A stretch of DNA of 64,000 nucleotides from Flavobacterium aerium (GTDB taxonomy: Bacteria; Bacteroidota; Bacteroidia; Flavobacteriales; Flavobacteriaceae), in NCBI RefSeq assembly GCF_030766725.1, contig NZ_JARQWR010000001.1, positions 372,001 through 436,000 of the forward strand, read 5' to 3'. This document shows positions 8,360 through 54,479 of the stretch, piece after piece. Both the position numbers and the translations under genes were made by a program. Each line of letters starts with the position of its first letter. The stretch's first letter is position 1. Under the pieces are notes generated by a model that worked only from the letters and a program-made list of their open reading frames with translations, made no database searches and was not told the origin of the DNA.

Positions 8360-11300
8360 TCAGGCACTTCCCATTTTATGTCGTGGCAGACCTATCTCAT
8401 GCTCCTGAGGGTATGGCGCTCTCTGGGTCATGCTTATATCCTCGCGGATATTTCTATGTGCATCGTATTGTTTTTCGCTACTTTCAGAATACCTTGGATC
8501 TGGTATAAAAGGCATTTTAGCCATCTTGGTTACTGTTATCGTAGGAAAGTGATAATCGACCTCCACATTTCCTAGCAGCAGATAACATCCTCCTCCTTCA
8601 AAGGGATATTCTTTAAGGCTGCCAGTAAAATGAGCCGTATCAAACAGTTCTCCCTCTACATCTATCCATGTTCCAAAAAACATTGCGCCCATCTTTGTAG
8701 GAACGTGCTTTCGAGAGATCAAATAAGCCAGCATTTTTACCGTTTTTTTGTGATGTTGTAATAAGTCTTTTGCCATTACATCGCCTCGAAATTTTGTTTG
8801 TAGCAGATCGAAAGGCGTGCACGAAACAGGAAAGCTTAATAATTCAATTTCATCGAAAGCATCTTCAAATCTTGAACGCTCCAAAACCGGGAGGTTGTAT
8901 TCCTTTACTGGTTCCTGAAGAAGCATCAAACTGCGATTTTCAGGTTTGAAATTAACCATTATCAGCCTTGCAATGACTAATAACTGGTTCTTTGTTTTTC
9001 CTGTGAAACGGAATGCTCCGATAAATATTAATATTTGGATTCCTTCGATGCCAATCGGTATTCTATTTATAAAATCTTCCAGTGATTTATATTCTCCATT
9101 TAATTGACGCTCGTTAACTATGTGCTCTGCTACTTTGGTTTCCAATCCTTCAAGATGCATAAACCCAAGGTAGACGTCGATACCATAAAGTGTAGTTTCA
9201 TATTCGCTTTTATTTACACATGGATTATGTATTACGGCACCTGACATCCGGGCTTCATGCACATATACTTCAGTTCTGTAAAAACCTCCTTGGTTATTAA
9301 TAACCGCAACCATAAATTCAATTGGATAATGTACTTTAAGATATAAGCTCTGATAGCTTTCAACTGCATAAGATGCTGAGTGTGCCTTACAGAAAGAATA
9401 TCCGGCAAACGATTCGATCTGGCGATAAATTTCCTGACTAAGTTCCAAAGGATGGCCTTGACGCTCACAGCATTCAAAAAAGTTATCTTTTACTTTCTGA
9501 AGGGCGGATTTTGACCTCCCTTTTCCGCTCATTGCCCTGCGCAATATATCCCCATCTGCAGCAGGAAGTCCTCCATAATGAAGGGCTATCTTTATTACGT
9601 CTTCTTGGTAAACCATTATGCCATACGTCTCACCGAGTTGCTCCTTAAATACTTCATGGAAGTACTCAAATTGTGTCGGGTTGTTATGCCTGAAAATATA
9701 TTCCTTCATCATTCCACTTTGGGCAACGCCAGGACGGATAATGGACGATGCGGCCACAAGGATCTTGTAGTTATTACATTGTAGTCTTCGGAGAAGCCCG
9801 CGCATTGCGGGACTTTCAATATAAAAACAGCCGATAGTTTTACCACGACCTAAATATTGATTGCACAAAACCTCATTTTTAGAAAGCGAAGTATCCCTAA
9901 TATCGACATTGATGCCACGGTTCTTAAGTATCAGCTTGACACTATCATCAATATGCCCTATTCCGCGCTGGCTCAAAATATCGAATTTTTCAAAACCAAT
10001 ATCTTCAGCAACATGCATATCGAACAGTGCGATTGGAAATCCTTTTGGTGGCATTTCCAGCACTGTAAAATTTGTAATAGGTTCTTCAGAAATCAGTATT
10101 CCACATGAATGCATACTTCTCTGATTGGGATACTTTTCAAGCATCATTCCGTATTCCTGAACCATCCTCACCACCTTATTATTATCGTGTAGTTCCAGCG
10201 GGTTTTTAGCAAGGGCATCAAGTTCCTCTTTTGGCAGTCCAAATACTTTTCCAACTTCTCTGAATATTGACCGATATTTAAACTCAACATTGGTGCCGCA
10301 GAAAGCAACGTGCTCGACTCCGTAACGGTTGAAGATATATTCTAATATTATATCACGTTCTTTCCATGACCAGTCAATGTCGAAATCTGGCGGGCTTTTT
10401 CGGTTTACATTTAGAAAGCGCTCAAAATACAAATCCAGTTCGATAGGACAGATATCAGTAATGCCTAGACAATAGGCGATAATGCTGTTAGCTCCGCTGC
10501 CCCTTCCTATGTGTAAAAAGCCCATACTGATACTATACCTAATAATATCCCATGTTATGAGAAAATAACCACTGAACTCCAATTCTTCAATGACTTTTAG
10601 CTCTTTGTCAACACGCTGTTTTGCAATAATATTATTAGTACCATATTTTTTGATCATTCCTTCCTGGGCTAGTTCTCTCAACCGTTGCATATCCTCATCG
10701 CGGCTGTTGGTGAAATATTTTTTATTGCGCGGGATTCCGAATTCATATTCAAAATTGCACCTTTCAATTATGTTTTGGGTATTATGAATAATAGTAGGAT
10801 AGAGCGTATATTTTTCCAATAATTCTGAGAGGGGCAGCATTGTTTCTGAATCATTACAATAATCCTCCGTAGTTAATTTTGACCCTATCACGTTTAGATC
10901 GACAGCACGTAATATTTTATGAAGGTTATATTCTTTTTTATTCCTAATTGTAACAGGATGAAGTATCATCATTTTATCTAACCTGTTTTTCCATTTTTCT
11001 TTATATAATAGAAGAAGTTCATCAGGCTTTATCCCGATGTATTCGTTTTGTTGTAGATTTGCCGGGGCATTGCTTAAAGGATAAATTACGATAACATTCT
11101 CGAAAGCCGGCGCAATGACTGGAAGCAGTAAATCTTCAAAATTATGCTTTGTCAAAAATCGGTTCATTTCTCCTAAACCTTCGCGATTTAAGGCAAGACC
11201 AATATATCGTAATGTATGCTGGCAGCGAAATTCAATTCCTATGAGGGGCTTTATAGATGCAGCTTGACATAATTTAATAAAATCGTAAATGCCTGTTACC

Positions 11301-11419
11301 GTATTGATGTCAGTAAGTACCATAGATTCTGCTTTGCATAGAACCCCCAGCTGTACCAATTCGTCAACCGGTATAGTGCCGTAGCGAAGGCTATGAAATG
11401 AATGGCAATTGAGGTACAT
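8360..11419 (-). CDS. dnaE: DnaE-type DNA polymerase III alpha subunit, short error-prone-like form (1019 aa)
   Basis: A C-family DNA polymerase. An N-terminal PHP domain (~1-250) is degenerate: the usual HxH reads NCH and the usual TDHG reads TDIN. The palm carries the catalytic aspartates in PDFDID (~341-346) and a later KFDIL. A tandem helix-hairpin-helix region and an OB fold (ISRKHVPTKMG onward, ~880-970) follow. At 1019 residues it is shorter than replicative DnaE (~1160) and nearer to DnaE2/ImuC. It lies three bases after the Y-family polymerase gene, so the two form one transcript. This pairing matches known SOS mutagenesis cassettes. Role in translesion synthesis is inferred. Confidence 0.92.
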   Translation of the reverse strand: MYLNCHSFHSLRYGTIPVDELVQLGVLCKAESMVLTDINTVTGIYDFIKLCQAASIKPLIGIEFRCQHTLRYIGLALNREGLGEMNRFLTKHNFEDLLLPVIAPAFENVIVIYPLSNAPANLQQNEYIGIKPDELLLLYKEKWKNRLDKMMILHPVTIRNKKEYNLHKILRAVDLNVIGSKLTTEDYCNDSETMLPLSELLEKYTLYPTIIHNTQNIIERCNFEYEFGIPRNKKYFTNSRDEDMQRLRELAQEGMIKKYGTNNIIAKQRVDKELKVIEELEFSGYFLITWDIIRYSISMGFLHIGRGSGANSIIAYCLGITDICPIELDLYFERFLNVNRKSPPDFDIDWSWKERDIILEYIFNRYGVEHVAFCGTNVEFKYRSIFREVGKVFGLPKEELDALAKNPLELHDNNKVVRMVQEYGMMLEKYPNQRSMHSCGILISEEPITNFTVLEMPPKGFPIALFDMHVAEDIGFEKFDILSQRGIGHIDDSVKLILKNRGINVDIRDTSLSKNEVLCNQYLGRGKTIGCFYIESPAMRGLLRRLQCNNYKILVAASSIIRPGVAQSGMMKEYIFRHNNPTQFEYFHEVFKEQLGETYGIMVYQEDVIKIALHYGGLPAADGDILRRAMSGKGRSKSALQKVKDNFFECCERQGHPLELSQEIYRQIESFAGYSFCKAHSASYAVESYQSLYLKVHYPIEFMVAVINNQGGFYRTEVYVHEARMSGAVIHNPCVNKSEYETTLYGIDVYLGFMHLEGLETKVAEHIVNERQLNGEYKSLEDFINRIPIGIEGIQILIFIGAFRFTGKTKNQLLVIARLIMVNFKPENRSLMLLQEPVKEYNLPVLERSRFEDAFDEIELLSFPVSCTPFDLLQTKFRGDVMAKDLLQHHKKTVKMLAYLISRKHVPTKMGAMFFGTWIDVEGELFDTAHFTGSLKEYPFEGGGCYLLLGNVEVDYHFPTITVTKMAKMPFIPDPRYSESSEKQYDAHRNIREDISMTQRAPYPQEHEIGLPRHKMGSA

Positions 11420-11422
11420 GAC

Positions 11423-12613
11423 TTATTTTTTTCTTTTTAATATTTCATTTTTATTATTGGGCTTGAATGTTGCGCCGCCTCCACGCATTACTGCATCAAA
11501 ACCATATCGGGTTTTCATTCTGTCCATTGCCTGGTACAACGAAAGCATTTCTTCGGTGTCTTCAAACATATTGATCTGATAAGTACCTCTCACCAGACCG
11601 CTGAAACGAATACCAATAAGTCGAAGGCGCATCCTGCGTTGGTAAAGTTTGTTGAAAAGGTCTGTTACATTCTTCATCAGTATATGATCTGCAGAAGTGT
11701 ACTGAACTCTGCATTGTTTGGTTTCAGTATCGAAATTTGCATAGCGTATTTTAATGACCACCGTTGAGGTAAGCCAGCCTTCAGAACGAAGCTGAAAAGC
11801 CAATTTTTCCACCATACCCTGAAGTACTCTTTTGAGTTTGTCGAGATCTATTGTATCCTGCAAAAAAGTATGCTCTGTAGAAATTGATTTACGCTCCGTA
11901 TACGGTTCAACTGGATTGTTGTCGATACCGTTAGCTTTTTTCCATAACTCGATTCCGTTCTTACCAATCATCTGCTGTAGTACCTCAGCCGGCATTTCAG
12001 AAAGTGTCTGGATATTTCTGACGCCTATACGTGATAACAATTGAAAAGTGGCATCACCTACCATCGGTATTTTTCTAATAGATAATGGATTAAGAAAAGG
12101 TTTTACCATATCTTCAGGAATTTCAAGATTACCTTTAGGCTTACCTTCTCCGGTTGCAATTTTGGATACAGTTTTATTGACCGATAATGCAAAGCTAATC
12201 GGCAAGCCCGTTTCTTTTGTAACGGACTGAGCCAGCTCGTTAGTCCAAACGTATGAACCGTAGAATTTATCCATACCCGTTATATCGAGATAAAATTCAT
12301 CGATACTGGCTTTCTCCATGACCGGGGCTTTTTCTTCTATAACCTCGGTAACTGCATGTGATAACCGCGAATATAATTCCATGTCACCTTTCATCACTTT
12401 TGCCTGCGGACATAAACGCAGCGCCATTTTAATTGGCATCGCTGAGCGTACGCCGAAAGTTCTAGCTTCATAAGAGCATGAAGCAACGACACCCCTTTCT
12501 CCTCCGCCAATAATCAGCGGAATACCATTCAATCTTGAATCAGTAAGCCTCTCGCAGGACACAAAAAATGTGTCCAGATCCATGTGCACAATTGCCCTTC
12601 CCATAACCTTCAT
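11423..12613 (-). CDS. dinB: Y-family DNA polymerase (DinB/Pol IV type)
   Basis: A translesion polymerase. Catalytic carboxylates are in HMDLDTFF near the N-terminus and in ASIDEFYLD (~100 residues later). Fingers motif YEARTFGVRSAMP, thumb HhH (IRKIPMVGDATFQLLSRIG) and little-finger domain follow. The longest frame starts at 12712, but that would overlap the divergent repressor and encode an atypical leader. ATG at 12613 (MKVMGRAIVHMD) or 12604 fits the family better. A minus-strand TAATTTTG box lies at 12633-12626. It is co-transcribed with dnaE and probably controlled by the divergent S24 protein. Confidence 0.92.
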   Translation of the reverse strand: MKVMGRAIVHMDLDTFFVSCERLTDSRLNGIPLIIGGGERGVVASCSYEARTFGVRSAMPIKMALRLCPQAKVMKGDMELYSRLSHAVTEVIEEKAPVMEKASIDEFYLDITGMDKFYGSYVWTNELAQSVTKETGLPISFALSVNKTVSKIATGEGKPKGNLEIPEDMVKPFLNPLSIRKIPMVGDATFQLLSRIGVRNIQTLSEMPAEVLQQMIGKNGIELWKKANGIDNNPVEPYTERKSISTEHTFLQDTIDLDKLKRVLQGMVEKLAFQLRSEGWLTSTVVIKIRYANFDTETKQCRVQYTSADHILMKNVTDLFNKLYQRRMRLRLIGIRFSGLVRGTYQINMFEDTEEMLSLYQAMDRMKTRYGFDAVMRGGGATFKPNNKNEILKRKK

Positions 12614-12625
12614 TTTTGTACCAAA

Positions 12626-12683
12626 CAAAATTAGTACAGATTGTAACAAATAAATTATATTTGCTGATACAAATTGTAACAAA
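12626..12683. promoter_or_regulatory. Divergent promoters and twin operator repeats
   Basis: TACAGATTGTAACAAA (12635-12650) and TACAAATTGTAACAAA (12668-12683) are 16-base direct repeats with one mismatch, 33 bases apart, about three helical turns. Each contains the palindromic core TTGTAACAA. A plus-strand TATATTTG (12656-12663) and a minus-strand TAATTTTG (12633-12626) match the TAnnTTTG -7 box. Each promoter is therefore bordered by one repeat. This is a strong candidate for control of both transcripts by the S24 repressor. Confidence 0.7.
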
Positions 12684-12689
12684 AACCAC

Positions 12690-13454
12690 ATGTCTTTATT
12701 TTCCGACAACATCAGAAGCCTAAGGCTAAAAAAGAAAATTTCGCAGGAAAAAGTCGCTATAAGCCTCCTAATAACACGTGGGAGGTATGCAAAATATGAA
12801 GACGGGACTTCAGAAGCCCCCTATGAAATATTGAAAAGAATATCAAAATATTACCAGGTCAGCATTGACATCCTGCTATGTGTTGACGTAAGGAAAGTCA
12901 AAATTGATGATTTGGTCAAGCTTGAGGATAACAGGGTTCTATTACCAGTGATAGTGACTAATGATGGTGAAAGTTTTATAGAAATTGTAACTCAAAAAGC
13001 TAAGGCGGGGTATATGAATGGATATTCAGATCCGGAATATATCGAAAGCCTGCCGCGTATTTCGCTGCCATTTTTAGGCCCCGGTATTCATAGGGGGTTT
13101 ACAGTTGATGGGGATTCTATGCCTCCACATGAAGACGGTGATGTTATTATTGCCAAATATATAGAAAGACTTGGCGAAGTAGTTGGCGGCAAGACGTATA
13201 TTATCATGACTAAAAATGATGGAATTGTCTACAAAAGATTGAATAAAAACAAGAAAAACTTACTGGTAGTCGAATCTGACGAACCTTTCTATAGTCCCTA
13301 TGAGGTTAAAACATCGGAGATTGAACAGATTTGGGAATTCAAATGTAATCTGGGCAAAAAAGACAAGAAGAGGGCTACCATTATTCCCGGCAGTATTGAA
13401 GAAATGTTTATGGAATTAAAGAATGACATTCAAAGACTGGAACGAAAGAGATAA
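12690..13454 (+). CDS. S24-type repressor: HTH plus LexA/CI-like autoprotease (254 aa)
   Basis: The N-terminal HTH_3 domain (~5-65) is followed by a linker and an S24 peptidase domain. Ser143 in VDGDSMPP and Lys182 in GIVYKRL form the expected Ser-Lys dyad. An Ala106-Gly107 pair (QKAKAGYM) is a plausible self-cleavage site. Such proteins repress DNA-damage genes until RecA-stimulated self-cleavage. It is divergent from dinB-dnaE and starts seven bases after an operator repeat, so autoregulation is likely. It is not the housekeeping LexA, because it has an XRE-type rather than winged-helix domain. Confidence 0.85.
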   Translation: MSLFSDNIRSLRLKKKISQEKVAISLLITRGRYAKYEDGTSEAPYEILKRISKYYQVSIDILLCVDVRKVKIDDLVKLEDNRVLLPVIVTNDGESFIEIVTQKAKAGYMNGYSDPEYIESLPRISLPFLGPGIHRGFTVDGDSMPPHEDGDVIIAKYIERLGEVVGGKTYIIMTKNDGIVYKRLNKNKKNLLVVESDEPFYSPYEVKTSEIEQIWEFKCNLGKKDKKRATIIPGSIEEMFMELKNDIQRLERKR

Positions 13455-13518: not shown

Positions 13519-13558
13519 TGCAAAATGGATCGTTTTTTGCAAATTTTGGATCGTTTTT
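13519..13558. repeat. Tandem direct repeats upstream of the MauE-like gene
   Basis: Two tandem units share TGCAAA and TGGATCGTTTTT: 13519-13537 and 13538-13558. TGGATCGTTTTT recurs 21 bases apart. A second pair, TTGTAAAACACT, is at 13596-13607 and 13676-13687, 80 bases apart. These could be regulator-binding sites for the peptide cluster downstream. No TAnnTTTG box was found nearby. Confidence 0.45.
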
Positions 13559-13708: not shown

Positions 13709-15217
13709 ATGAAAACATCAGTATCTTTTAAAAACACTGTAGTCGAGATAATCTGCTTGCTTTATATAATATTATTTGTGTATGCGGCAGTGAGCAAGAT
13801 ACTGGATTTTGAAAATTTCCAAACACAATTGGCACAATCGCCACTTATTAGTTCTTTTGCTGGAATCATATCATATATTGTTCCAGTTGTCGAAATTTTA
13901 ATTGCTGTAATGTTATGCTTTAAAAAATTCAGGAATTTAGCGCTTTACTGTTCACTGAGTTTAATGGTCATGTTTTCAGCGTATATCATAATTATCTTAA
14001 ATTTTAGTCCGTTTGTTCCTTGTTCCTGTGGCGGTATATTAGATAAATTATCATGGACTCAGCATTTGATTTTTAATCTCTGTTTCGTTCTGTTATCATC
14101 GATCGCAATTATTTTTTGGAATCCAAATCATGCTGAAAATAATTTATCTCGCAGCTATATAAAGTTTCCTTCAATTTTAATAACTACACTTTGTAGCATT
14201 ACTGTTATGGTAACACTGTTTCTATTCTCTGAGGATATGATTCACCATCGCAATAACTTCACACGGAGGTTCCCGAATCATCCTGTTCTATTTGAACGGG
14301 ATTATACTTTATCAAAAGGTCGTTACTACATTGCAGGAATAGGAAAAGGCAGTCTCTTTATTGGTAATATCCTAAACCCCTTGGAAGTAATCGAATTGGA
14401 TGCCACTCTTACCCACAGCAAAACCCATTTCATCACTGTGAAAGACCCTAACAGAAGGTATCGTTCTTTGCAGGTTAACGTAAAATACCCCTATTTCTAT
14501 TTAAGTGATGGTACTGAAGCTTTTGTTTATAGGGGATTGGTCAACGACTGGAATGCGGAAATCTGGATTGATAAAAAATCCTATTTCAATTCATTTGTCC
14601 CTATCGATTCTAATACTGTTGCGATACGTGCGGTTAGTAGTGATAATAACGAAAATATGATTGGTCTGATTAAAAATATCGATACAGTTTCCGTAAACTT
14701 TAATCGCAATCTTCTCGATAAACAAATCGATGGCATTTTCGATACAGATGGAAAGTTGCTATACAACAGCATATTGGACAAACTAATATATGTTTATACG
14801 TATCGAAATGAATATCTCATTTCTGACGGTGAGCTTAATGAAAAGTACGTAGCACACACTATTGACACGACCTCACGCGCTAATATCAAAGTTGCCTATA
14901 TCAATTCTCTCGAAGCAAGTAAACTTGCATCTCCAGCTAGAATTGTCAATAAGACAGCTGCAACTTATGGAGAATATCTTTATGTGAATTCGCAACTCAT
15001 TGGGCAGTATGAACCTAAAGACGTTTGGAATGAGGCTTCTGTGATTGACGCATACAATCTTAAAACGCATGCCTATCAATTCAGCTTTTACCTGTATGAC
15101 AAAGAAGGAAAGAAAATTTCAGAATTTATTTCGGATGAAAATCACATTTATACACTTTCTGGGAAAACCGTAAGTGTTTATAAAATCGACAAAAAAATAT
15201 TTGACAAAAATCAATAA
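13709..15217 (+). CDS. MauE/DoxX-like redox membrane protein with large extracytoplasmic domain (502 aa)
   Basis: Residues ~10-170 hold four to five membrane helices typical of the MauE/DoxX family, including VYAAVSKILDF after helix 1 and the redox motif PCSCGG (Cys105, Cys107). Residues ~185-502 form a soluble, beta-rich domain without cysteines (repeats such as YFYLSDGTEAFVYRG), perhaps propeller-like. MauE-type proteins are linked to disulfide formation in exported proteins. Two Cys-rich exported peptides follow at once, so this protein probably oxidises or escorts them. Fusion to a large C-terminal domain is unusual for the family. Promoter lies somewhere in the repeat-containing 250 bases upstream. 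Confidence 0.8.
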   Translation: MKTSVSFKNTVVEIICLLYIILFVYAAVSKILDFENFQTQLAQSPLISSFAGIISYIVPVVEILIAVMLCFKKFRNLALYCSLSLMVMFSAYIIIILNFSPFVPCSCGGILDKLSWTQHLIFNLCFVLLSSIAIIFWNPNHAENNLSRSYIKFPSILITTLCSITVMVTLFLFSEDMIHHRNNFTRRFPNHPVLFERDYTLSKGRYYIAGIGKGSLFIGNILNPLEVIELDATLTHSKTHFITVKDPNRRYRSLQVNVKYPYFYLSDGTEAFVYRGLVNDWNAEIWIDKKSYFNSFVPIDSNTVAIRAVSSDNNENMIGLIKNIDTVSVNFNRNLLDKQIDGIFDTDGKLLYNSILDKLIYVYTYRNEYLISDGELNEKYVAHTIDTTSRANIKVAYINSLEASKLASPARIVNKTAATYGEYLYVNSQLIGQYEPKDVWNEASVIDAYNLKTHAYQFSFYLYDKEGKKISEFISDENHIYTLSGKTVSVYKIDKKIFDKNQ

Positions 15218-15292
15218 AGATATACAGCGCAGTATCAGGGTAAGATCGAAAACCTGTAACAGAGTAGATCACTAATTATAAATTTTTTTATT

Positions 15293-15544
15293 ATGAAAAC
15301 CAGAATTTTTAAAACCGTTTTCCCGATGTTGGCTTTCGTTATTGCCATTTCCGGTGCATTTGCATTTAGTAGCACTCCTACAACAAAGACTGCTGCCCAG
15401 TTTATCGGACACAAGCCACAAGATTGTGAGGAAACTGGCGTAATGTGTCAGGATAATACTGTCACTACGCCTTGTCAAAGCGGTGGCGTTAATCTTTACA
15501 AACTTAACGGTTCTACCTGCCCTAACCAATTGTGGAGAATTTAG
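15293..15544 (+). CDS. Small Cys-rich exported peptide, DUF6520-like, copy 1 (83 aa)
   Basis: A hydrophobic signal-like N-terminus (TVFPMLAFVIAISGAFAF) precedes a mature part with four cysteines in the pattern C-x6-C-x8-C-x14-C. The last segment NLYKLNGSTCPNQLWRI is shared with the next gene. The size and pattern recall the flavobacterial DUF6520 family, named from memory. Even cysteine number and the adjacent MauE-like gene suggest disulfide bonds. The function is unknown; a secreted signal, structural peptide or bacteriocin-like product are all open. Confidence 0.75.
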   Translation: MKTRIFKTVFPMLAFVIAISGAFAFSSTPTTKTAAQFIGHKPQDCEETGVMCQDNTVTTPCQSGGVNLYKLNGSTCPNQLWRI

Positions 15545-15557
15545 TCCGCTAAAAAAT

Positions 15558-15593
15558 GAAGCATGCCGCGAATGATTGCGGCATGCTTCTTTA
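15558..15593 (+). terminator. Perfect 12-bp hairpin between the two peptide genes
   Basis: GAAGCATGCCGC (15558-15569) and GCGGCATGCTTC (15578-15589) pair fully around an eight-base loop. The + strand tail has only four T; the minus-strand tail is ATTTTTT, so it may also stop leftward transcripts. On the + strand it may act as a partial terminator or a 3' stabiliser that lowers expression of the second peptide relative to the first. Confidence 0.65.
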
Positions 15594-15614
15594 AAAAAAA
15601 CTAAAACTACAAAA

Positions 15615-15872
15615 ATGAAAAATTTACAACCCCGTAACATGTTTGCGATCATCGCGTTTATAACCGGTATTAGTGGTGCATTTTCCTTTAAACCTGCACA
15701 AGATCGAGATGCCTTGTACATAGGGTACATTCATCTTGCAGCAGATTGTTTGGAGACCGACGTTTTGTGTTCAGATTTGGGTCCAATCTTATGTAAAAGC
15801 GGCACGCAAAACCTTTATGGCTTAACATCAGGGGGAACTACGTGTGCTTTGCAATTGTTTAGGATTCCATGA
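15615..15872 (+). CDS. Small Cys-rich exported peptide, DUF6520-like, copy 2 (85 aa)
   Basis: Homologue of the preceding peptide. The signal-like segment is MFAIIAFITGISGAFSF, and the mature region has four cysteines as C-x6-C-x7-C-x16-C, ending TTCALQLFRIP. The start is set at ATG 15615; an in-frame ATG at 15576 lies within the hairpin and would spoil the signal peptide. Its TGA stop abuts the stop of the convergent S9 peptidase gene with no spacer. Duplication with divergence between copies suggests a family of related products. Confidence 0.75.
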   Translation: MKNLQPRNMFAIIAFITGISGAFSFKPAQDRDALYIGYIHLAADCLETDVLCSDLGPILCKSGTQNLYGLTSGGTTCALQLFRIP

Positions 15873-18422
15873 TCAAAAGCCTTTCAAATACTTGTCAAAC
15901 CATGTTTTTATCCTTGCCGTTAAATCCTGCTGTGTTGATTCATCTGTGAGAATGTGGCCTTGTCCCGGATATAAAAGCATTGTTCCTGTTTTCCCCAAGC
16001 GACGCATAGCCAAATGCAGTTCTACGCTTTGCTCAAAATTAACCTGTGTATCGGCGGTTCCTGCCCAACTTAATAAAGGCGTTTTAATTTTTGCTGCATT
16101 CATTATCGGAGAATTGTTTTCATAACCAAGTTTATTGTCGAAGGGCGAACTACCCATTCGGAACTGTTGGGATTCCAACCTCCAAGCATTTGAGTGTTGT
16201 CCAATATAATTCATCGTATGATACCAACTAATAATATCCGTAACTCCTGAACCGGCTACTGCGGCACTAAACAATTCTGTTTGGGTAATAATCAGCGATA
16301 CTTCATAACCACCGAAAGAATGCCCGATAATACCTAATTTATCCTTATTGACTAGTCCACGAGCAACGACTGTGTTTACCGCTGCCGTTATGCAATCTAC
16401 AGCTGATTTACCCGGATCGCCAAGCGCAAACTGAATATCAGGCAATAACACAAAATATCCGTCTAAAAAGTAAGTTGATGCTTTAAAACCTGCGCGATCT
16501 AACAAAGTAGGGTTTATATATTCATATAAGTGTTGCGACAACTTTTCGTAAATATATGTTACCATAGGATATTTTTTGCCACTTTCGTAATCCGATGGAT
16601 ACATTAAAATTCCTTGTAGCGTTTCTCCAGCCGTATTTTTGTAAGTGATCAGTTCTGATCGCGACCATTCATATTTGTTGTAATGGGCATTTGACTGGTA
16701 CACTTTCTTCCTTTTCCCAGTTTTCACATTATAAACTACCAACGAAGGTGGCGACTGTTCTGTCTGCTCGATGTAGCAGTAAGTATGTTTTGACTTAGCT
16801 TTTTTAATCCGGTCTTTCTGCGATTTTCCGTAATCTAATTTTCGTAAACCTTTTTCTTTTGTATACATATAATAGCCACTTGATTTGTCTTCGCCAAAAG
16901 CTGAACAAACGATTCCTTGATTGATATCAAATTCATATTTTGAAAATTCTGCAAAGTTGCCCACCTGCTTCAGGTAAATTTCCGTTGGAATCCTGAAACA
17001 TTGCTTTGTTTCCCTGCCATTTGTGATTCGTGTTCCTTTGTAATCATCAGTCGAAACCAGCCAAATATCGTATTTGTCATAAACGATCAAAAAACGGCTG
17101 TCATTTGTAAACCCCGGACTTGTATAGCCTTCGTTTTCTGCGGCGTTGTCGTAACCTTCCCTGTAAAAATCACTATGCAAAGAAGCCGTGACATTGACAG
17201 AAATTTCTTTGGACGTGTCATAAACAAAATAATTGCCTCCTTTGAAATGACTTATAAAATTGCCGTCTGGCGATGGAAGGACTGCATTTGCGGAGATTGA
17301 TCCTTTCGTAATGATTAGTTTTGAACCTGTATTTTCAAAATTATTCAAGTAGTAATCTACGGGCGCCAATTCTGCATATTGCGGTTCATAAGTAAGCTTT
17401 GAATACGACAAGTATAATTTATCGCCAGGTAGTATTTTTGATTCTGTTGCGGTGTCGGGTTCGAGTTTTTCTACGCTATTTCCACCCAATGTCCAAGAGG
17501 CCAAAAAGAGACCATTGGTAACTTTTAAATTTTCCTGAGCCGGGTATTCCAATGGTGAGCTTGTTTCCCAAACTTCTACGATGGGTTTTACTGAGTCGGA
17601 ATGCTTTATTTCTACACAACTGAAATAAATTTTTTGTGCATCACTGGCGACTACCAACTTACTGTCTTTAAACTGAAAGATGACATTATCAAACTGCAGA
17701 TTTTGGGCATCCAATTTTTGCAGCTTCATATTATCCGTATTCAAATATGCGAGGGAATTGATTTTAGTTGATACATTTTCCGAAATGTAAAATGCTAAGA
17801 AATTGCCTGATTTGTCCCATGTCAATTTTTTATACTTGATCAAATCACTATGGACGATTTCTCTAAATTCAATGATCCTTCCGAGCGATGCGATTTTAAG
17901 GCCTTGGTTTGTCTCAATAGCAATCTTGTTGGAGGTACTTATGGAATAATCAGAAACACCTTTGGTTTTTGAAATGACAAAATTGTTGCTGTCAAGAATC
18001 GACAATGTATTCCCTATACTATCCTGCTGTAGCACCAACAGGTACTTACCATCGTTCGAAAAGTTATGCTTTAACATATTGTTGTATGCCTGCCGTTCTC
18101 CTGATTTAAGATTGAGTATTTCCAGATTATTTTCTGGACCGGATATTGCAGCACTAAAGCTATCTTTACTAAAAACAATATCATCTGCTTTTGGGAAATT
18201 GTAGGTAACTTTGCTATTTATTCTTCTGATAAACATGGTATCAAGACTGTTTTCATAAGTCATCTGAAATGATACCCAATTGCCATCGGGAGAAATGGAT
18301 TCTCCCGACAGCGTTCCCCATTTAGCATAGTCAGCAATAGTAATCTTGCGTTTTTGCTGCTGCGCCGAGCAGGACAAAAACAACAATACCATTACCAATA
18401 CTTTATAATAAACTGTTTCCAT
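15873..18422 (-). CDS. S9 prolyl-oligopeptidase/dipeptidyl-peptidase-type peptidase (849 aa)
   Basis: An exported serine peptidase. The N-terminus ends in a lipobox-like FLSCSAQ (Cys18). Residues ~30-600 form a beta-propeller-like region with repeated SPDGN-type strands. The alpha/beta hydrolase domain has the nucleophile in GHSFGGYE (Ser ~702), Asp in AGTADTQV and His in GQGHIL. It would cleave short peptides at the cell surface or periplasm. It follows susD by one base and is the third gene of a SusC-SusD-peptidase operon. Its stop abuts that of the second Cys-rich peptide gene, so the units converge. Substrate may be the peptides nearby or imported oligopeptides. Confidence 0.9.
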   Translation of the reverse strand: METVYYKVLVMVLLFLSCSAQQQKRKITIADYAKWGTLSGESISPDGNWVSFQMTYENSLDTMFIRRINSKVTYNFPKADDIVFSKDSFSAAISGPENNLEILNLKSGERQAYNNMLKHNFSNDGKYLLVLQQDSIGNTLSILDSNNFVISKTKGVSDYSISTSNKIAIETNQGLKIASLGRIIEFREIVHSDLIKYKKLTWDKSGNFLAFYISENVSTKINSLAYLNTDNMKLQKLDAQNLQFDNVIFQFKDSKLVVASDAQKIYFSCVEIKHSDSVKPIVEVWETSSPLEYPAQENLKVTNGLFLASWTLGGNSVEKLEPDTATESKILPGDKLYLSYSKLTYEPQYAELAPVDYYLNNFENTGSKLIITKGSISANAVLPSPDGNFISHFKGGNYFVYDTSKEISVNVTASLHSDFYREGYDNAAENEGYTSPGFTNDSRFLIVYDKYDIWLVSTDDYKGTRITNGRETKQCFRIPTEIYLKQVGNFAEFSKYEFDINQGIVCSAFGEDKSSGYYMYTKEKGLRKLDYGKSQKDRIKKAKSKHTYCYIEQTEQSPPSLVVYNVKTGKRKKVYQSNAHYNKYEWSRSELITYKNTAGETLQGILMYPSDYESGKKYPMVTYIYEKLSQHLYEYINPTLLDRAGFKASTYFLDGYFVLLPDIQFALGDPGKSAVDCITAAVNTVVARGLVNKDKLGIIGHSFGGYEVSLIITQTELFSAAVAGSGVTDIISWYHTMNYIGQHSNAWRLESQQFRMGSSPFDNKLGYENNSPIMNAAKIKTPLLSWAGTADTQVNFEQSVELHLAMRRLGKTGTMLLYPGQGHILTDESTQQDLTARIKTWFDKYLKGF

Positions 18423-18423
18423 T

Positions 18424-19809
18424 TCAGTAGCCAGGATTTTGTGGTAAAAGATTTGAGTTTAGTAAAATTTCGGTTTCTGGCAGTGGAAGCAAAACATCCG
18501 TATTTTGCCAACCTGGTTTAATTGGACTCAACGCCGTACCAGCATTTCCTGTCCTTTTCAAATCGAACCAACGGTGACCTTGTTCACAAAAGAATTCGAA
18601 CCGTCTTTCCTGTAAAATTGCAGCTTTTAAAGATGTGGTTGTATTTGCAGTTGTATTGGGCAAACCTGCACGATTACGCGTCATGTTTAAATCCTGCTGT
18701 GCACCTGTAATGTCTCCAAGGATGGCGCGTGCTTCGGCACGGATCAGGTGTTGTTCTTCAATCCTGAGAACAATTGTGTATTCCTGCGACGGTTCTGTTA
18801 CCGAAGATTTTTTGTATTTATATGCCTGGTACCAAACATCTGTGCCGTCCGTAATTGTGCGAATCCAAGATGTTTGGCGGATGTCTCCACTTTCAAAGGC
18901 ATTTCTCAGATTAACCGCTAAGGCTGCTTTAGTAGGTGGCCCTGACGAAAAAATATAGGCTCTCGCGTCTTTCGTATTCAGCCCTGCAATTCCCGGGTGG
19001 AAAGACCAGATAATTGATGGGCTTTCTTTTAAAAAAGCCAATGCGAGATTTGGTTCTACCGAATACAGGCTGTTGTTGATTACTGCAGTAGCATAATTCC
19101 GTGCTTTTTCATAATCTTCAATGTACAGGTAAACCCTTGCTAACATTGCCAGTGCAGCCGCCTTACTGACACGAACACGGTATTCTGACGGATAACTTTC
19201 AGGCAAAAAGGTTTCTGCCTCCGTCAAGTCTGACACAATCAGTTCATAAACCTGCGTTTGTGCCATTTTAGATACTGTCGTGTTCGCTTCATAATCTATT
19301 GTAGTTATATAAGGAATATCGCCATAGATATTCACTAAATAAAAATGGATGAACGCCCTAATAAACATTGCCTCACCGAGTAAACGGTTCCGATCTTCAC
19401 CTGTGATAACAGTAGAATTTTGTACGCCTTCGATCAGAGCATTGACTGCATATATTTCGCCATAACTCGTATTCCAAAGATTGGTAAGCAACGTGTTCGA
19501 TGGCAAAACTGTATGTTTATTGAACTGTTCAATATCGACATTTGTACCGTAAAAATCCATGTCGTCGGCATAGTTTGCAAATAGTGTTGTACCTCCTAAT
19601 TGTGTACCTGCTGAAACGCTCCCTTCTCGCAAACGTGCATAGATGTCTGACAAAGCTGCATTTGCAGTTGACACGTCTTCAAATACAGCAGGACCTGTCA
19701 GTTGGGACTGGGGCATATCGGTTTCTGTAAAATCTTCGCAGGAAAATATAAAAAGGAATATGAAGGGCAATAATAGTACCCTTGCTGTTAAATTTATAAG
19801 TTTTTTCAT
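18424..19809 (-). CDS. RagB/SusD-family outer-membrane lipoprotein (461 aa)
   Basis: A surface lipoprotein that caps a SusC channel and binds its substrate. The lipobox is LFIFSCEDF (Cys24). TPR-like helices (EAMFIRAFIHFYLVNIYGDIP and AALAMLARVYLYIEDY) and the C-terminal EQGHRWFDLKRTG motif are hallmarks of SusD proteins. It lies between the SusC gene (16 bases upstream) and the peptidase (one base downstream). The pairing with a peptidase points to peptide rather than glycan handling. Confidence 0.93.
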   Translation of the reverse strand: MKKLINLTARVLLLPFIFLFIFSCEDFTETDMPQSQLTGPAVFEDVSTANAALSDIYARLREGSVSAGTQLGGTTLFANYADDMDFYGTNVDIEQFNKHTVLPSNTLLTNLWNTSYGEIYAVNALIEGVQNSTVITGEDRNRLLGEAMFIRAFIHFYLVNIYGDIPYITTIDYEANTTVSKMAQTQVYELIVSDLTEAETFLPESYPSEYRVRVSKAAALAMLARVYLYIEDYEKARNYATAVINNSLYSVEPNLALAFLKESPSIIWSFHPGIAGLNTKDARAYIFSSGPPTKAALAVNLRNAFESGDIRQTSWIRTITDGTDVWYQAYKYKKSSVTEPSQEYTIVLRIEEQHLIRAEARAILGDITGAQQDLNMTRNRAGLPNTTANTTTSLKAAILQERRFEFFCEQGHRWFDLKRTGNAGTALSPIKPGWQNTDVLLPLPETEILLNSNLLPQNPGY

Positions 19810-19825
19810 GTTAGTCGTTTTTTAA

Positions 19826-22800
19826 TTAGAAACTTAATTGTATGCCCATTGTGAATTGTTTTAACGGAGGCAGATAATTTACAGACTTGTTCTCGGGATC
19901 GACACCTTTGTATTTTGTGAATGTCAAAAGGTTCTGCCCTTGAATGTAAATTTTCCCCGAGAATGATTTTGACCAAAGGGCGGGAATGCTGTATGACAGG
20001 CTGGTGCTTTTGAGTCTAATAAAAGATGCATCGGTAACCATCGCATCACTGGATGTAAACCTGTCCTGCGCCTGATTTGCGAGTGAATTGCTACCAGTGG
20101 CGTATTGCTGTACTGTTGCCGTAGTGCTATCTTGCGGGAAATGATTTAGCACCTGCGCCGGTTGATTTGAAAATGTACCTGAATGGGGGAAAAATGAAAG
20201 CACATTAACGCCGTCTTGTTTTACAAACTGAAAAAGGAAATCCAATGACCAATTTTTGTATGACAATTGATTTGCAAATCCTCCATAGTATTGAGGTGAA
20301 GTGTCGATCATGGCTTGGCGGTCGTCTGTAGCGGTAATTTCACTATCGCCATTAAAGTCCTCAAATTCATATAATCCTGTTTCCGAATTGATGCCTGTGT
20401 AGTGATAAAGCTTCTGAATGTTTAGAGATTCCCCGATTACAAACAGGTTTTTATAAGTTGAGGTTTCCAGTCCCGGAAATTCCAACAATTTATTACGTGG
20501 AATAGTGAGATTTAACATTGTTGTCCAATTGAAATTTTGTGATTTAAAATTGACGGTACGCCATTCCAATTCAAGGCCTGTGTTCTCAACGGTTGCATCG
20601 AGATTTGCCTGTAAGGTTGGAAAACCTGTAGTTCCAGGAAGGGGAATACCGACCAACTGGTTTGAAGACCGATTTTGAAACCATGCAGCACTGAGAGAAA
20701 TTTTGTCGTTCAGAAAGCCCAATTCGACAGCCACTTCAAATTTCCTGTTGGTTTCCCACCCAAAATTTGGATTGAATAACCTTGTTGGCTGAATACCGGT
20801 CATGCCATCATATTCATTTTGTGACACTTGATATGTATCGAGATACTGATAATCGCCAATTTGGTCATTTCCCGTAATTCCGTAACTAGAGCGAATTTTA
20901 CCGAAACTCAGCACTCCGGAATTGTCTTTTAAGAACGGTTCGTTAGAAAAAATCCAGGCTGCGCCAACAGCACCGAAGTTTGCGAAACGGTTGTCAGGAC
21001 CAAAACGGCTTGAGCCATCGCGACGACCAGTAAGATTCAATATGTATTTGTCTACGAGGTTTATATTGATCCGTCCAAAAAATGCATTGTATTTGTATTC
21101 GGAAAAATCATCGTTAAGTACTTCCACAGTTGTAGCAGCTGTAAGGCTATTAATGAGCGCATTGCTTGGAAACCCGATACCGTTTACCGCCAATTGCTCC
21201 TGTTTTTTTGTCTGGAAAGTTGTCCCTGCTAAGATATTAACTTCCAGAATTTCCCATTTTTTCTGCCAATTGAGTTGCGGTTCGATGATCCAGGAACGCC
21301 TCGTGCCATCGTTCGCAAATACTGACGAATCGTCTGTGGTATAGTTGCCAAACGGATTGTACATCGTTGACGGAATCAACCTTTTTTCCGAAAGCTTCGT
21401 ATCGCTGAACCCTAAACTTGTTCGTATCTCAAAACCGTATTTCAATTTGTATGATAGCAGTGCATTTGCCAAAAGCGTATTTGTTTTATTTATGTAACTG
21501 CCATTTAAGAACCCTAGTGGATTTTCGAAAGAGCCATTTTCCCAATTCAGATTTCCAGATTCCTCGTAAAGCGATGGGGCGTTAGGCGCCAGCACATACG
21601 ATTGCCTTGTGAGGTCAATTCCAGGGAGTGTGTTTTTGTCGCCCGAGTAGTCAGCAGAAAAAGCCAACTTAAATCTGTCGTCTTCTGAGCGGTGGTTGAT
21701 ACTCACGTGAACTGCTCCGCGATTAAAATGCGAATCACCAGGAAAAACTGTCGTTTCTTTGCGATAAGTCCCACTCAGTAAATATTGGGTTTGGCTTGAG
21801 CCGCCTGATATAGTCGCCTGTGCATTGTAGATGTTTGCCGTGCCACCGATCAATACTTTTTGCCAGTCGGTTTCGCGCGTATCGCTCCAAGTTCCATTGA
21901 CATCATAGGCATCTGCAGGATAGGTTGTTATGCCATCATTTGCAAATGCTTCGCGACGCATTGCCAGATATTGCTGTGTATTGAGCAAATTCATTTTGCG
22001 TGTTATTTTCCCAACGGTGGTGTAAGATTGAATTTCAAATTTGGTTTTCCCCGCTTTCCCTTTTTTCGTCGTGATTAACACGACACCATTTGCACCGCGA
22101 GAACCGTAGATTGCGGTGGCATCTGCGTCTTTCAGTACTTCAATATTTTCGATGTCGGCAGGATTGATGTTGCTTAAAGGACTGGACAGACCGCCGAATC
22201 GATCGTTCGAAACCGTGCTGTTCCCTAAACTTTGCGACGCATACGGTACACCATCGACAATATATAACGGATCGTTACCTTCACCACGAATTGAATTCAG
22301 GCCGCGTACTTGAATGCTGAAACCGCTTCCTGGTGTTCCCGCAGACTGTGTTATGTTTACACCTGCCATTCGGCCTTGCATAGCAGCCAATGGATTACTG
22401 ACGGGTTGTTTTTCGATATCAGTTGCCTTGACCCTTGCGATGCTTCCTGTTCTTTCTTTATCCTTAACCGAATAATACCCTGCATTAATAGTCACTTCCT
22501 TAAGTTGAGTACTATCTTCGGCTAATATTACATTAATGGATATTTGGTTTTCAACGGTAATTTCTTGCGTAGCATAACCAATAAATGAAAAAACGAGAAT
22601 GTCTGTAGAGTTAGCAGTAATTGAAAAATTGCCTTTTTCATCTGTTACGGCTGAAGTTGTAGTTCCTTTGACAAAGACCGTTACGCTTGGAAGTGGTCCA
22701 GCGGCATCGGTAACTGTACCTGTAATTTGATGTTGTAACTGCTTCGTGTAGCTTCCGAACGTTAGTTCGGTGGCATACATATAATTGGAAAGCAGAATTG

Positions 22801-22858
22801 CGAAAATAAATATGCAAAGACAGGAAGGCCTGCCCTTGTTAAATGAAAGATTTTTCAT
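19826..22858 (-). CDS. RagA/SusC-family TonB-dependent outer-membrane channel (1010 aa)
   Basis: A signal peptide (to ~29) is followed by a carboxypeptidase-like regulatory domain (TGTVTDAAGPLPSVTVFVKG, ~47-110), a plug domain with SusC signatures (NPLAAMQGRMAGVNI, RGxNSIRG, YGSRGANGVVLITTKKG) and a ~750-residue barrel ending in aromatic QLSF. It imports or exports a substrate with SusD, energised by TonB. No FecI/FecR pair is nearby. The 660 bases upstream hold a large palindrome. Its small size suits peptide-type SusC proteins. Confidence 0.95.
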   Translation of the reverse strand: MKNLSFNKGRPSCLCIFIFAILLSNYMYATELTFGSYTKQLQHQITGTVTDAAGPLPSVTVFVKGTTTSAVTDEKGNFSITANSTDILVFSFIGYATQEITVENQISINVILAEDSTQLKEVTINAGYYSVKDKERTGSIARVKATDIEKQPVSNPLAAMQGRMAGVNITQSAGTPGSGFSIQVRGLNSIRGEGNDPLYIVDGVPYASQSLGNSTVSNDRFGGLSSPLSNINPADIENIEVLKDADATAIYGSRGANGVVLITTKKGKAGKTKFEIQSYTTVGKITRKMNLLNTQQYLAMRREAFANDGITTYPADAYDVNGTWSDTRETDWQKVLIGGTANIYNAQATISGGSSQTQYLLSGTYRKETTVFPGDSHFNRGAVHVSINHRSEDDRFKLAFSADYSGDKNTLPGIDLTRQSYVLAPNAPSLYEESGNLNWENGSFENPLGFLNGSYINKTNTLLANALLSYKLKYGFEIRTSLGFSDTKLSEKRLIPSTMYNPFGNYTTDDSSVFANDGTRRSWIIEPQLNWQKKWEILEVNILAGTTFQTKKQEQLAVNGIGFPSNALINSLTAATTVEVLNDDFSEYKYNAFFGRININLVDKYILNLTGRRDGSSRFGPDNRFANFGAVGAAWIFSNEPFLKDNSGVLSFGKIRSSYGITGNDQIGDYQYLDTYQVSQNEYDGMTGIQPTRLFNPNFGWETNRKFEVAVELGFLNDKISLSAAWFQNRSSNQLVGIPLPGTTGFPTLQANLDATVENTGLELEWRTVNFKSQNFNWTTMLNLTIPRNKLLEFPGLETSTYKNLFVIGESLNIQKLYHYTGINSETGLYEFEDFNGDSEITATDDRQAMIDTSPQYYGGFANQLSYKNWSLDFLFQFVKQDGVNVLSFFPHSGTFSNQPAQVLNHFPQDSTTATVQQYATGSNSLANQAQDRFTSSDAMVTDASFIRLKSTSLSYSIPALWSKSFSGKIYIQGQNLLTFTKYKGVDPENKSVNYLPPLKQFTMGIQLSF

Positions 22859-48062: not shown

Positions 48063-50081
48063 TTATACATTGCTTTTGGGCTTATCCTTTTGCACCAAAT
48101 GCTGTAAGTCGGGGTTATTCTTTATGCGCTCCAGTTCGGCTTCGATAACCAGTACAATATCCGTTTTTATCTGCCTGTAATTGCCTTCGATTGCCTGCTT
48201 CATATTGTCTTTCCCGTTTTTGTCAATAAAAGATAAGATTTCCGGTATTTTTTGATATACTTTAGTTTCGGAAGCAACCTTTTCATTGTCCACGACAATT
48301 TCAGCATGGAAGATTTTCTGCTCGATCCTTTCATCAAAATTGTCCGATACAGCACCAACAAAAAAACCTTGTGTCAAGGTGGATATTTTGGAAGCCGGTA
48401 TGAGACTGTCTAATTGGGTAGATATCGAAGTCGATGTGTCGTTGCGGTTGATGCTCATACTCTGCCTTTTCTGTAATACTTTCCCGAATCGCTCCGAAAG
48501 GCTTTTTGCCGTTTCGCCAACAACCTGGCCACTAAAAATATTACCTACTGTATTTTGAATAACCTTGCTTTCCTTGTCGCCATAATCCCTTGTTAATTGC
48601 GAGAAATCCTGAAAGCCCAAACAAACCGCTACTTTATTACTACGGGCAGTTGCGATAAGATTATCCAATCCTCGAAAATATATTGTTGGCAATTCGTCTA
48701 TAATAACAGAACTTTTTAATTGTCCTTTTTTGTTAATGAGCTTTACAATTCTTGAATTGTACAAACCTAATGCTGCAGAGTAAATGTTTTGGCGGTCGGG
48801 ATTGTTACCTACACAAAGTATTTTGGGTTCTTTAGGGTTGTTGATGTCTAATGAAAAATCGTCGCCTGTCATTACCCAATACAATTGTGGACTAATCATT
48901 CTTGATAAAGGAATTTTAGCCGATGCAATCTGTCCTTGTAACTGGTCTTGGGCTCCGCCTTGCCACGCATCCATAAAGGGTGAAAGATAATTTTCCAAAT
49001 CAGGATATGAAGTAAGGATAGTAAATACGTCCGAATACTTTTTGTTCAGTAATTCAATGGCGTGTGGGAAAGTACAGTACTTACCATCCTCGTAGATTTT
49101 CAGATACCAAATAATGGCAGCAAACAGGATAATTGGGCTTTCCACGAAAAAATCGCCCTGCTTCTGTATCCAGCTACGGTTGAGGTTCAGCATTATGGTA
49201 TAAGCTGCTTCGTAAGCGTCGGAAATGTCCGTCATAAAGTCGGGATTGAGTGGATTGCAACGATGACTCTTACGTGGATCGTCAAAGTTGATGACATAGA
49301 ATTTGGGTTGTACTTTATACTTATCCCGATGCTTTAATAAATGGTTATAAGCAATGGTAGAAAGATCGTCAAACTTGAAATCGTAGATGTACATACTGAA
49401 ACCTTTCTCAATTTGTTGTTTGATGTAATTATTGATAATCGCATACGATTTTCCTGAACCTGGAGTTCCCAAAACTATCGTTGCCCGAAAAGGATTGACT
49501 ATATTAATCCAGCCGTTGTTCCATTTGCCTTTGTAATAAAATTTTGTGGGAAGATTGACAGAATATTCGTTTTCCATCAGTTTGGTTTCCTGTTGGAAAC
49601 TCTCGTTTTCATTATTGAAAACATCGTCCATCAGATTAGTACGGAGCAATCGGCTCATCCAAACTCCGGCTACCATTAAAGCGATATAACCTAAACTTGT
49701 GGTAAGGATATAAAGGATTGTGGCCGTAATTATTGATAGCTTTAATAAAGGTGTGTTCAGAAAAAACAGAACAAAGCCAATCGCCAAAGCAATATAAATT
49801 TTAGTCCAGGTTATCTTCTCGTCTTTAACCCCCTTTGTACCCAAACAGCTTAGTGCCAATAATACCAGAGCAAACACTTTGGTATATAAAGTATGCGAAA
49901 ACAATCCCGCGGTACGCTGAAAATTGCCTAATATTTTGTTGATTAGCTCTAAAGTCCATCCGCGATCTATAAAGTAACCGTAGCAAAACCAATAAAGGTG
50001 CATCAATACCAATAGGATACTTACTGCCCGCATAAAAGCCATAATTTTGGCTAATCCTCTTAAATCATCTTCTCCCTGCAT
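48063..50081 (-). CDS. mobC: MobC/TraG-type conjugative coupling protein (672 aa)
   Basis: A VirD4-like ATPase that links the relaxosome to the secretion channel. The N-terminal ~140 residues have several membrane helices. Walker A is GTPGSGKSYAI (~205-215), and Walker B is VIIDELPTIY with FQDFSQL sensor motif later (~470-500). The C-terminus is helical. It reads leftward from mobA-mobB and lies next to the cargo block, whose right edge is thus about 48.0 kb. It starts 101 bases after mobB ends. Confidence 0.92.
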   Translation of the reverse strand: MQGEDDLRGLAKIMAFMRAVSILLVLMHLYWFCYGYFIDRGWTLELINKILGNFQRTAGLFSHTLYTKVFALVLLALSCLGTKGVKDEKITWTKIYIALAIGFVLFFLNTPLLKLSIITATILYILTTSLGYIALMVAGVWMSRLLRTNLMDDVFNNENESFQQETKLMENEYSVNLPTKFYYKGKWNNGWINIVNPFRATIVLGTPGSGKSYAIINNYIKQQIEKGFSMYIYDFKFDDLSTIAYNHLLKHRDKYKVQPKFYVINFDDPRKSHRCNPLNPDFMTDISDAYEAAYTIMLNLNRSWIQKQGDFFVESPIILFAAIIWYLKIYEDGKYCTFPHAIELLNKKYSDVFTILTSYPDLENYLSPFMDAWQGGAQDQLQGQIASAKIPLSRMISPQLYWVMTGDDFSLDINNPKEPKILCVGNNPDRQNIYSAALGLYNSRIVKLINKKGQLKSSVIIDELPTIYFRGLDNLIATARSNKVAVCLGFQDFSQLTRDYGDKESKVIQNTVGNIFSGQVVGETAKSLSERFGKVLQKRQSMSINRNDTSTSISTQLDSLIPASKISTLTQGFFVGAVSDNFDERIEQKIFHAEIVVDNEKVASETKVYQKIPEILSFIDKNGKDNMKQAIEGNYRQIKTDIVLVIEAELERIKNNPDLQHLVQKDKPKSNV

Positions 50082-50182
50082 TATTTTAATTTTTAATGTT
50101 CGGGCGTGAATTTAAAAGCTGTACAGGTTGACTATAAGAATGTGGAAGTCAATGGCGTTGCGGGGCAGTGTTTGGCTGATTT

Positions 50183-51472: not shown

Positions 51473-51474
51473 TT

Positions 51475-51912: not shown

Positions 51913-51977
51913 AACCTGTCCATTTTAATCCTTACACAAAACCCTGACTTCGGAAGGTGTTTTTCAGCTCCCGGAAG

Positions 51978-52074
51978 GGCAAGTTGTTTTGAGGCACGAA
52001 CTCGGTTTCGAGTGCCTCAAAACACAACTTGCCGTGTTCCGTTGAACACAAAAATCCGCCCTTCGGGACGGATT
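51978..52074. other. oriT candidate: long hairpin plus second hairpin upstream of mobA
   Basis: Bases 51978-51996 pair with 52013-52033 with two unpaired bases, giving an approximately 19-bp stem; both arms include AAGTTG/CAACTT and GAGGCA/TGCCTC. An inner CTCG/CGAG stem closes the tip. AATCCG (52053-52058) with CGGATT (52069-52074) forms a second hairpin. Position beside mobA and the lack of any gene make this the best oriT candidate; the nick site cannot be read. Confidence 0.6.
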
Positions 52075-53378: not shown

Positions 53379-53389
53379 AACACTTAAGG

Positions 53390-53794: not shown

Positions 53795-53797
53795 GCT

Positions 53798-54433: not shown

Positions 54434-54479
54434 AAGGGCAATACTCCCCTTTATTGTTTAATAAAAAACACAGAATATC

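Follow-up and report, generated by a model that had tools for sequence, protein, structure and literature searches.

A convergent MauE and SusCD-peptidase unit of Bacteroidota that may handle a self-encoded disulfide peptide

Introduction

Two small gene groups meet tail to tail in the genome of Flavobacterium aerium. One encodes a MauE-type membrane protein and short exported peptides, the other a peptidase and a SusC-SusD outer-membrane pair. Do they form one system, and what would that system act on? We addressed this question starting from a stretch of 64,000 nucleotides (the window; assembly GCF_030766725.1, contig NZ_JARQWR010000001.1, positions 372,001–436,000, forward strand). The two groups, here called arms, usually occur together in Bacteroidota genomes, and their layout is beyond chance, as it is found a second time in the same genome and recurs in other Bacteroidota. 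The explanation we prefer is a single mobile two-armed unit that handles a disulfide peptide of its own; we put its probability at roughly 45%.

Results

Architecture of the unit

The forward-strand arm begins with a MauE-type redox membrane protein of 502 residues (13709–15217; PF07291, 106.6 bits, cut-off 27) that carries a PCSCGG motif. It is followed by two peptides with four cysteines each: P1, an exported DUF6520 peptide of 83 residues (15293–15544; PF20130, 37.1 bits, cut-off 25.4), and P2, a second DUF6520-like peptide of 85 residues (ATG at 15615, stop at 15872). The reverse strand encodes an S9 prolyl-oligopeptidase-type peptidase with a Ser-Asp-His triad (15873–18422; PF00326, 104 bits), which occupies the position called slot X below. 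Next come a SusD/RagB lipoprotein (18424–19809; PF14322, 114.7 bits; PF07980, 84.9 bits) and a SusC/RagA TonB-dependent transporter (19826–22858; TIGR04056, 726.8 bits, cut-off 368.25). The TIGR04056 match together with the adjacent SusD identifies a SusC/RagA transporter pair. P2 and S9 end on neighbouring bases, stop codon against stop codon (15872/15873), and the MauE-peptide arm faces S9-SusD-SusC tail to tail. An earlier, sequence-only reading of the window had described these genes and their positions, the CSCGG motif, the touching inner stops and two exported four-cysteine peptides. Open reading frame (ORF) and profile searches confirm the gene set, and both peptides have a start that resembles a signal peptide by eye, with four cysteines after it.

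The two arms are linked across genomes

MauE places were drawn from 199 genomes of the family, 395 genomes of the phylum and named genomes (the best 80 of at least 590 relatives). All 34 phylum stretches outside the family and two same-genus stretches were analysed. A convergent SusD lies downstream of MauE in 131 of the 147 places with at least 4.5 kb of downstream sequence. By group, this is the case for 1/1 (own), 37/38 (family), 69/73 (named), 1/2 (same genus), 5/5 (another family of the order) and 18/28 (other families). In no place is the sole downstream SusD on the same strand as MauE, and SusD lies upstream of MauE in 1/144. These linkage counts retain the near-identical loci L094–L096; L106, L144 and L165 were dropped as the same places as L054, L055 and L060, and L238 as it contains no MauE.

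The 16 exceptions include a truncated MauE (L091), a contig end (L093), S9 remnants (L113, L138) and a locus with no SusD (L172). The others are a same-genus MauE with different neighbours (L229) and ten MauE-like proteins of other families (L214, L220, L222, L223, L226, L227, L230–L233), all inspected by eye except L232.

The linkage is seen from both sides in the 199 family genomes. SusD of this type is present within 10 kb at 40 of 43 MauE places, and MauE within 10 kb at 40 of 48 places of this SusD type (reverse search, E up to 1e-50). DUF6520 was found at 32 places, and MauE lies within 3 kb of 30 of these. MauE occurs in 26 genomes, this SusD type in 26 and both in 25 (hypergeometric 1.7e-29; this value and the Fisher values disregard shared ancestry). 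These counts favour the proposal of the sequence-only reading that both halves belong to one system. Eight SusD places are unlinked: L279 has a MauE, found on inspecting these loci, that the search of the family genomes did not list, probably through its scoring cap, L280 and L281 have a peptide match, L287 is on a short contig, and four have no detected peptide (L278, L282–L284). SusCD of this type without a detected peptide, a pattern whose frequent occurrence the earlier reading would have counted against a shared system, is seen in these four loci. Genes upstream of these four resemble, by eye, a sigma/anti-sigma pair of the extracytoplasmic function type, and the loci are possibly an ancestral peptide-uptake form.

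A second unit with the identical convergent order is present on contig C3 of the same genome. Identity to the window is 46% for MauE-propeller, 39% for the peptide, 35% for S9 and 51% for SusD; SusC is also matched. A MauE remnant (L009, 12861–13195) with its own repeat promoter lies 5' of the intact C3 copy and is a possible trace of recombination between units.

Propeller and peptide cysteines are coupled

The AlphaFold2 model of the MauE protein has a mean predicted local distance difference test score (pLDDT) of 89.1. It shows a helical part, a long helix (152–180) and a predicted β-propeller formed by residues ~190–495, which would be located on the periplasmic side. The closest solved structure to the propeller is the DUF4221 protein 3s9j (Z 19.9, root-mean-square deviation 3.7, 288 aligned residues, 9% identity), tied with six-bladed NHL propellers (Z 19.3). 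Both cysteines of the CxC motif, C105 and C107, are invariant in 68 aligned MauE-propeller fusions. Flavobacterium predominates among the relatives listed with the closest MauE sequences (best 80 of at least 590).

P2 shares 47% identity with P1 across P1 residues 7–83. Scanned from an upstream TTG, it scores 15.1 bits against PF20130, below the cut-off, and retains all four cysteines. The start and the four cysteines are the sole invariant columns in an alignment of 80 peptides from the loci that most resemble the window's own. Of the 40 peptides in the family set, 23 have all four cysteines and 17 the inner two only, with no other pattern. Since C1 and C4 are lost together, nested disulfides C1–C4 and C2–C3 are predicted. 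The P1 model contains a small β-rich domain after the signal region (mean pLDDT 76.2); no PDB match to this fold was found with Foldseek (best E 0.29) or VIA-align (no row with Z of 2 or more).

The number of cysteines follows the propeller. A peptide profile built from the family set detected a peptide in 129 loci, and 126 of them combine either four cysteines with a propeller or two cysteines with no propeller. L091 and L103 were left out of this table; in L066 and L067 the propeller is an ORF overlapping MauE and was counted as present. Outside the top-80 set, the two combinations account for 28 and 25 of 56 loci, with three exceptions (L064, L203, L206). The coupling persists inside groups defined by the type of slot X: M16 (3 and 8), DUF4953 (2 and 6) and, with two exceptions, TlpA (5 and 6). 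Given this coupling, the propeller probably serves the outer disulfide. In 20 SusD-linked loci outside the family, a crude signal-peptide filter finds a small ORF at the peptide position in 17, of which 16 have two cysteines and one has four.

Tandem peptide arrays occur, with up to five members. The longest, L163 10530–12954 of Flavobacterium aquidurense, encodes five DUF6520-like peptides, one with six cysteines. The mature peptides are the most divergent part of the unit, with a median identity of 25% across 70 S9-type loci; the corresponding values are 32% for S9, 38% for the propeller, 47% for SusD, 52% for the MauE domain and 53% for SusC. The rate of non-synonymous substitution (dN) is below that of synonymous substitution (dS) for the peptide in all 21 close pairs with both values computable (22/23 pairs run). 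By this measure the peptide genes of close pairs appear to be under purifying selection, with positive selection lacking, and an arms race was rejected on the same 21 pairs. The median net charge of the peptides is −1, and only 15 of 80 reach +2 or higher. In addition to the four loci dropped from the linkage counts, L095 and L096 were dropped from the divergence and partial-correlation, charge, and hairpin and propeller-coupling sets, and L009 from the divergence and partial-correlation set.

In a swap test, loci were exchanged within genomes (24 loci of 11 genomes, 2000 swaps). The observed correlation of the peptide was reached in 19/2000 swaps for SusC, 23/2000 for S9 and 8/2000 for the propeller (per-test values, uncorrected). 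Swapping lowers most correlations between parts, and the propeller-SusC value was reached in 21/2000; the correlation of the MauE domain with S9 was not lowered (reached in 719/2000).

Unrelated enzymes share slot X

In 37 linked family loci, slot X contains M16 (11), S9 (8), DUF4953 Met-zincin (8) or TlpA-like proteins (8). Two proteins have no profile match: L069 is an amidohydrolase with PD40 repeats, and L072 is TlpA-like by Pfam. Types were assigned by scanning ten representatives with Pfam, and the counts come from our own profiles. Catalytic motifs are conserved in each type. The S9 Ser-Asp-His triad is present in 87 of 88 aligned proteins, the window protein included, the M16 motif HxxEH in 11/11 and CxxC in 18 of 23 TlpA-like proteins. 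DUF4953 enzymes have HExxHxxGxxD in 8/8; the zinc motif HExxHxxGxxH was rejected (0/8), the third position being Asp in all eight. Motif counts for S9, TlpA and DUF4953 keep duplicates and L238. Several loci of other families have their TlpA gene on the far side of SusC and not beside SusD.

The eight best S9 matches, including that of the window, are all in such loci, and most weaker matches are longer proteins elsewhere. Assignment of S9 as a lasso peptide isopeptidase was rejected (NF033523, 101.4 bits vs a curated 400), as was the BT_3928 family (NF045576, 17.4 bits vs a curated 250). The best evidence on the cargo is that unrelated enzymes acting on peptides or disulfides share one slot, which suggests that SusCD would carry a peptide.

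The arms appear to be transcribed separately

Of 102 convergent gaps of at most 150 bases, 87 contain a hairpin that is T-tailed on both strands, compared with 0 of 102 after shuffling (each gap once, by single bases). From the convergent orientation and this terminator, the arms are transcribed separately. Mutual silencing of the arms by overlapping transcripts was rejected as the general case, given the two-sided hairpins. The window's own P2-S9 gap holds no hairpin. A hairpin with T-rich sides lies instead between P1 and P2 (15558–15589; called on the reverse strand, with 12 pairs and no strand assigned) and is likely the shared terminator; shuffles of the stretch yield 0.9 such hairpins for the one found. 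Its position suggests that P2 arose later, by duplication, and came to lie beyond the terminator.

A direct repeat of period 21, GGATCGTTTTT, is located 5' of the MauE gene (13527–13558, forward strand) and is a putative regulator site. Genome-wide it has three matches, all exact with up to three mismatches allowed, each 5' of a MauE copy or remnant; the control gave 0. With at most one mismatch, 10 of the 155 regions upstream of MauE contain the repeat, including three from near-identical loci. At up to six mismatches there are 23/155, one in the reversed control and 0/125 upstream of SusC. Periods of 20 and 22 give 14 and 16 at this level, so the weak matches are unspecific and an extension of the repeat beyond close relatives was rejected. 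Only in close relatives does the repeat look like a promoter element, one that would serve the peptide arm. Presumably, a period of 21 bases would fit a LytTR-type regulator.

The unit lies in a probable mobile-element setting

At the left edge of the window, a serine recombinase ORF (473–2179) overlaps a tRNA-Leu (582–665). To the right, the region 48063–63020 encodes a T4CP, a relaxase, a ParA-like protein, TraG, TraJ and TraM of the CTnDOT kind. Judged from these genes, the greater part of the window resembles an integrative conjugative element, or conjugative transposon, that would carry the unit. The C3 copy adjoins a relaxase, DUF3408 and a ParA-like protein, and L138 adjoins TraJ and TraM. 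We used nine transfer, mobilisation or dinB/dnaE proteins of the window as queries. At 39 of 159 loci the flanks contain relatives, a count that includes the window, keeps duplicates and L238, and stands without a background rate; the fetched flanks of the other 120 contain none. A scan of viral contigs confirmed no relative.

Two polymerases and a helix-turn-helix regulator lie beside the unit (8360–13454); by eye one polymerase is DnaE-like, and the other is of the DinB/ImuB type (Pfam IMS). Relatives of the two polymerases occur in the flanks of 11 and 10 of the 159 loci, and also beside the truncated MauE of L091.

Discussion

We propose that both arms act on one peptide. The DUF6520 peptide would be exported via its signal peptide, and the MauE membrane protein, through its CxC motif, would make or proofread the C1–C4 and C2–C3 bonds, joined by the propeller for four-cysteine peptides. 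That MauE may oxidise the peptide follows by analogy from the role supposed for its family, namely the speculation, in the part of the source that concerns it, that MauE aids disulfide formation in the β subunit of methylamine dehydrogenase (PMC7794033). The cognate SusCD would carry peptide cargo across the outer membrane. A periplasmic S9, M16 or DUF4953 peptidase, or a TlpA-like thiol reductase, would then cut or open this cargo. The likeliest ligand would be the unit's own peptide, either free or loaded with something captured outside. In the net cycle, the unit would make, release, retrieve and break down a disulfide peptide. Our data are compatible with the chain suggested by the sequence-only reading, in which the peptides are oxidised, exported and then trimmed or re-imported. 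We are more doubtful about a fuller picture of a Gram-negative peptide cycle, in which a disulfide peptide made by a dedicated MauE-propeller oxidase is released, recaptured by a cognate SusCD, opened or destroyed by a dedicated peptidase or reductase, and serves as a carrier or signal. This cycle would pass as a whole from species to species on conjugative elements, with exchange of its last enzyme.

Several results weigh against this proposal. Its weakest step is that the SusCD cargo would be the unit's own peptide. Partial correlations of the peptide are close to zero for SusD (0.08), SusC (0.04) and S9 (−0.01), and 0.17 for the propeller. The solved SusC nearest to that of the window, 8aa4, is labelled merely 'SusC homolog' and RagA ranks third; the sequence therefore does not single out a peptide importer. 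No route out through the outer membrane was recognised within the unit, and the peptide may remain periplasmic. CxxC is missing from 5 of the 23 TlpA-like proteins, and by the link between MauD and MauE the role of TlpA could be oxidation rather than breakdown. Co-regulation of both arms is unsupported, as the MauE-side repeat is absent upstream of SusC. Finally, the four loci described above that show neither a detected peptide nor a detected MauE combine this SusD type with neighbouring TlpA or M16 genes.

Some of these points suit a different explanation, which is the main rival and a credible if tentative one. Under it, SusCD and the X enzyme would take in environmental peptides, and the peptide matured by MauE would never leave the cell but stay in the periplasm as an accessory to SusCD or X, acting as their adaptor, gate, inhibitor or redox sensor. 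A signal peptide with no recognised outer-membrane export route in the unit, purifying selection on the peptide genes, and loci of this SusD type with no detected peptide, as expected of an add-on, all agree with it. Oligopeptide uptake is also the interpretation given for a SusCD locus of Flavobacterium collinsii that includes S9 and other peptidases (PMC10132118). However, a single homologous peptide family is found with four unrelated X types, which is odd for an enzyme inhibitor, and tandem peptides, with as many as five in L163, would be expected of a ligand more than of a subunit.

It is improbable that the unit serves competition, with the peptide as a released toxin and SusCD-peptidase as receptor and self-protection by breakdown. 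The proximity of some copies to conjugative-element genes, the patchy distribution (26 of 199 family genomes) and the tandem copies and strong divergence of the mature peptides would fit such a role. The slightly negative median charge, dN below dS and the lack of an exporter or modifying enzyme among the six unit genes (Pfam, NCBIfam) speak against it. The antimicrobial role that had been considered for the peptides in the sequence-only reading is disfavoured by the charge of the 80 peptides and the lack of positive selection.

Phr or pheromone peptides serve density signalling in Gram-positive conjugative elements. By analogy, the peptide could report donor density, with SusCD-peptidase reading or clearing it. 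We regard this as highly improbable. The window and C3 copies do share their region with transfer or relaxase genes, and relatives of the window's mobility genes flank 39 loci, but 120 of 159 show none, no cytoplasmic reader was recognised in the unit, and such elements often carry cargo genes that do not serve them.

The remaining option, an independent stress or redox unit and a nutrient unit that are neighbours by chance, would fit the separately transcribed arms and a repeat 5' of MauE only, but is very unlikely and refuted as a general explanation by the linkage in 131 of 147 places, the 25 genomes shared between two sets of 26 and the presence of two copies of the same layout in one genome.

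In the open literature we found no published account of DUF6520 or, by title, of MauE with SusCD, and none of NVEALA peptides. As far as this literature shows, our results point to a system undescribed in print. If our proposal is true, DUF6520, a large MauE group and a class of SusCD-peptidase loci would together gain a testable function, and the unit would provide a rare example in which the ligand of an outer-membrane importer is encoded alongside it. The coupling of the propeller to the second disulfide is a sharp biochemical prediction.

Known systems resemble the unit in part. In the excerpts concerned, SusCD import of oligopeptides is stated for RagAB of Porphyromonas gingivalis and for BT2263-2264 (PMC10132118), and a flavobacterial SusCD is interpreted likewise (PMC9723704). 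The unit shares the SusC-SusD pair with these loci and adds an adjacent peptidase gene. It differs in the facing peptide arm, which recurs across several Bacteroidota families. We know of no description in which RagAB or BT2263-2264 are faced by genes for making a disulfide peptide of their own.

NVEALA peptides of Bacteroidales are also small, exported and cysteine-containing, and several are encoded beside lipoproteins of ~340–390 residues, which we take to be propellers. Several such peptides occur in one Bacteroidales-type genome (L275–L277). The idea that NVEALA is the Bacteroidales form of the unit was rejected, as three stretches of that one genome contain no MauE or SusCD match; a parallel peptide-propeller system is possible.

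Candidate clusters for ribosomally synthesised and post-translationally modified peptides (RiPPs) found by decRiPPter in Streptomyces place MauE beside a cysteine-rich predicted precursor. In contrast to the peptides here, these precursors have at least 8 cysteines, and the passages on them mention no SusCD arm (PMC7794033). None of the six unit genes encodes a RiPP class-defining modifying enzyme by Pfam or NCBIfam, a test that covered these six and not genes farther off.

The MauE/MauD system is similar in that a MauE-family protein lies beside a small secreted protein containing cysteines, with a thioredoxin-like protein in some loci. In the unit, however, the small protein is a DUF6520 peptide and not a dehydrogenase subunit, and a DUF4221/NHL-like propeller and SusCD with a peptidase are added.

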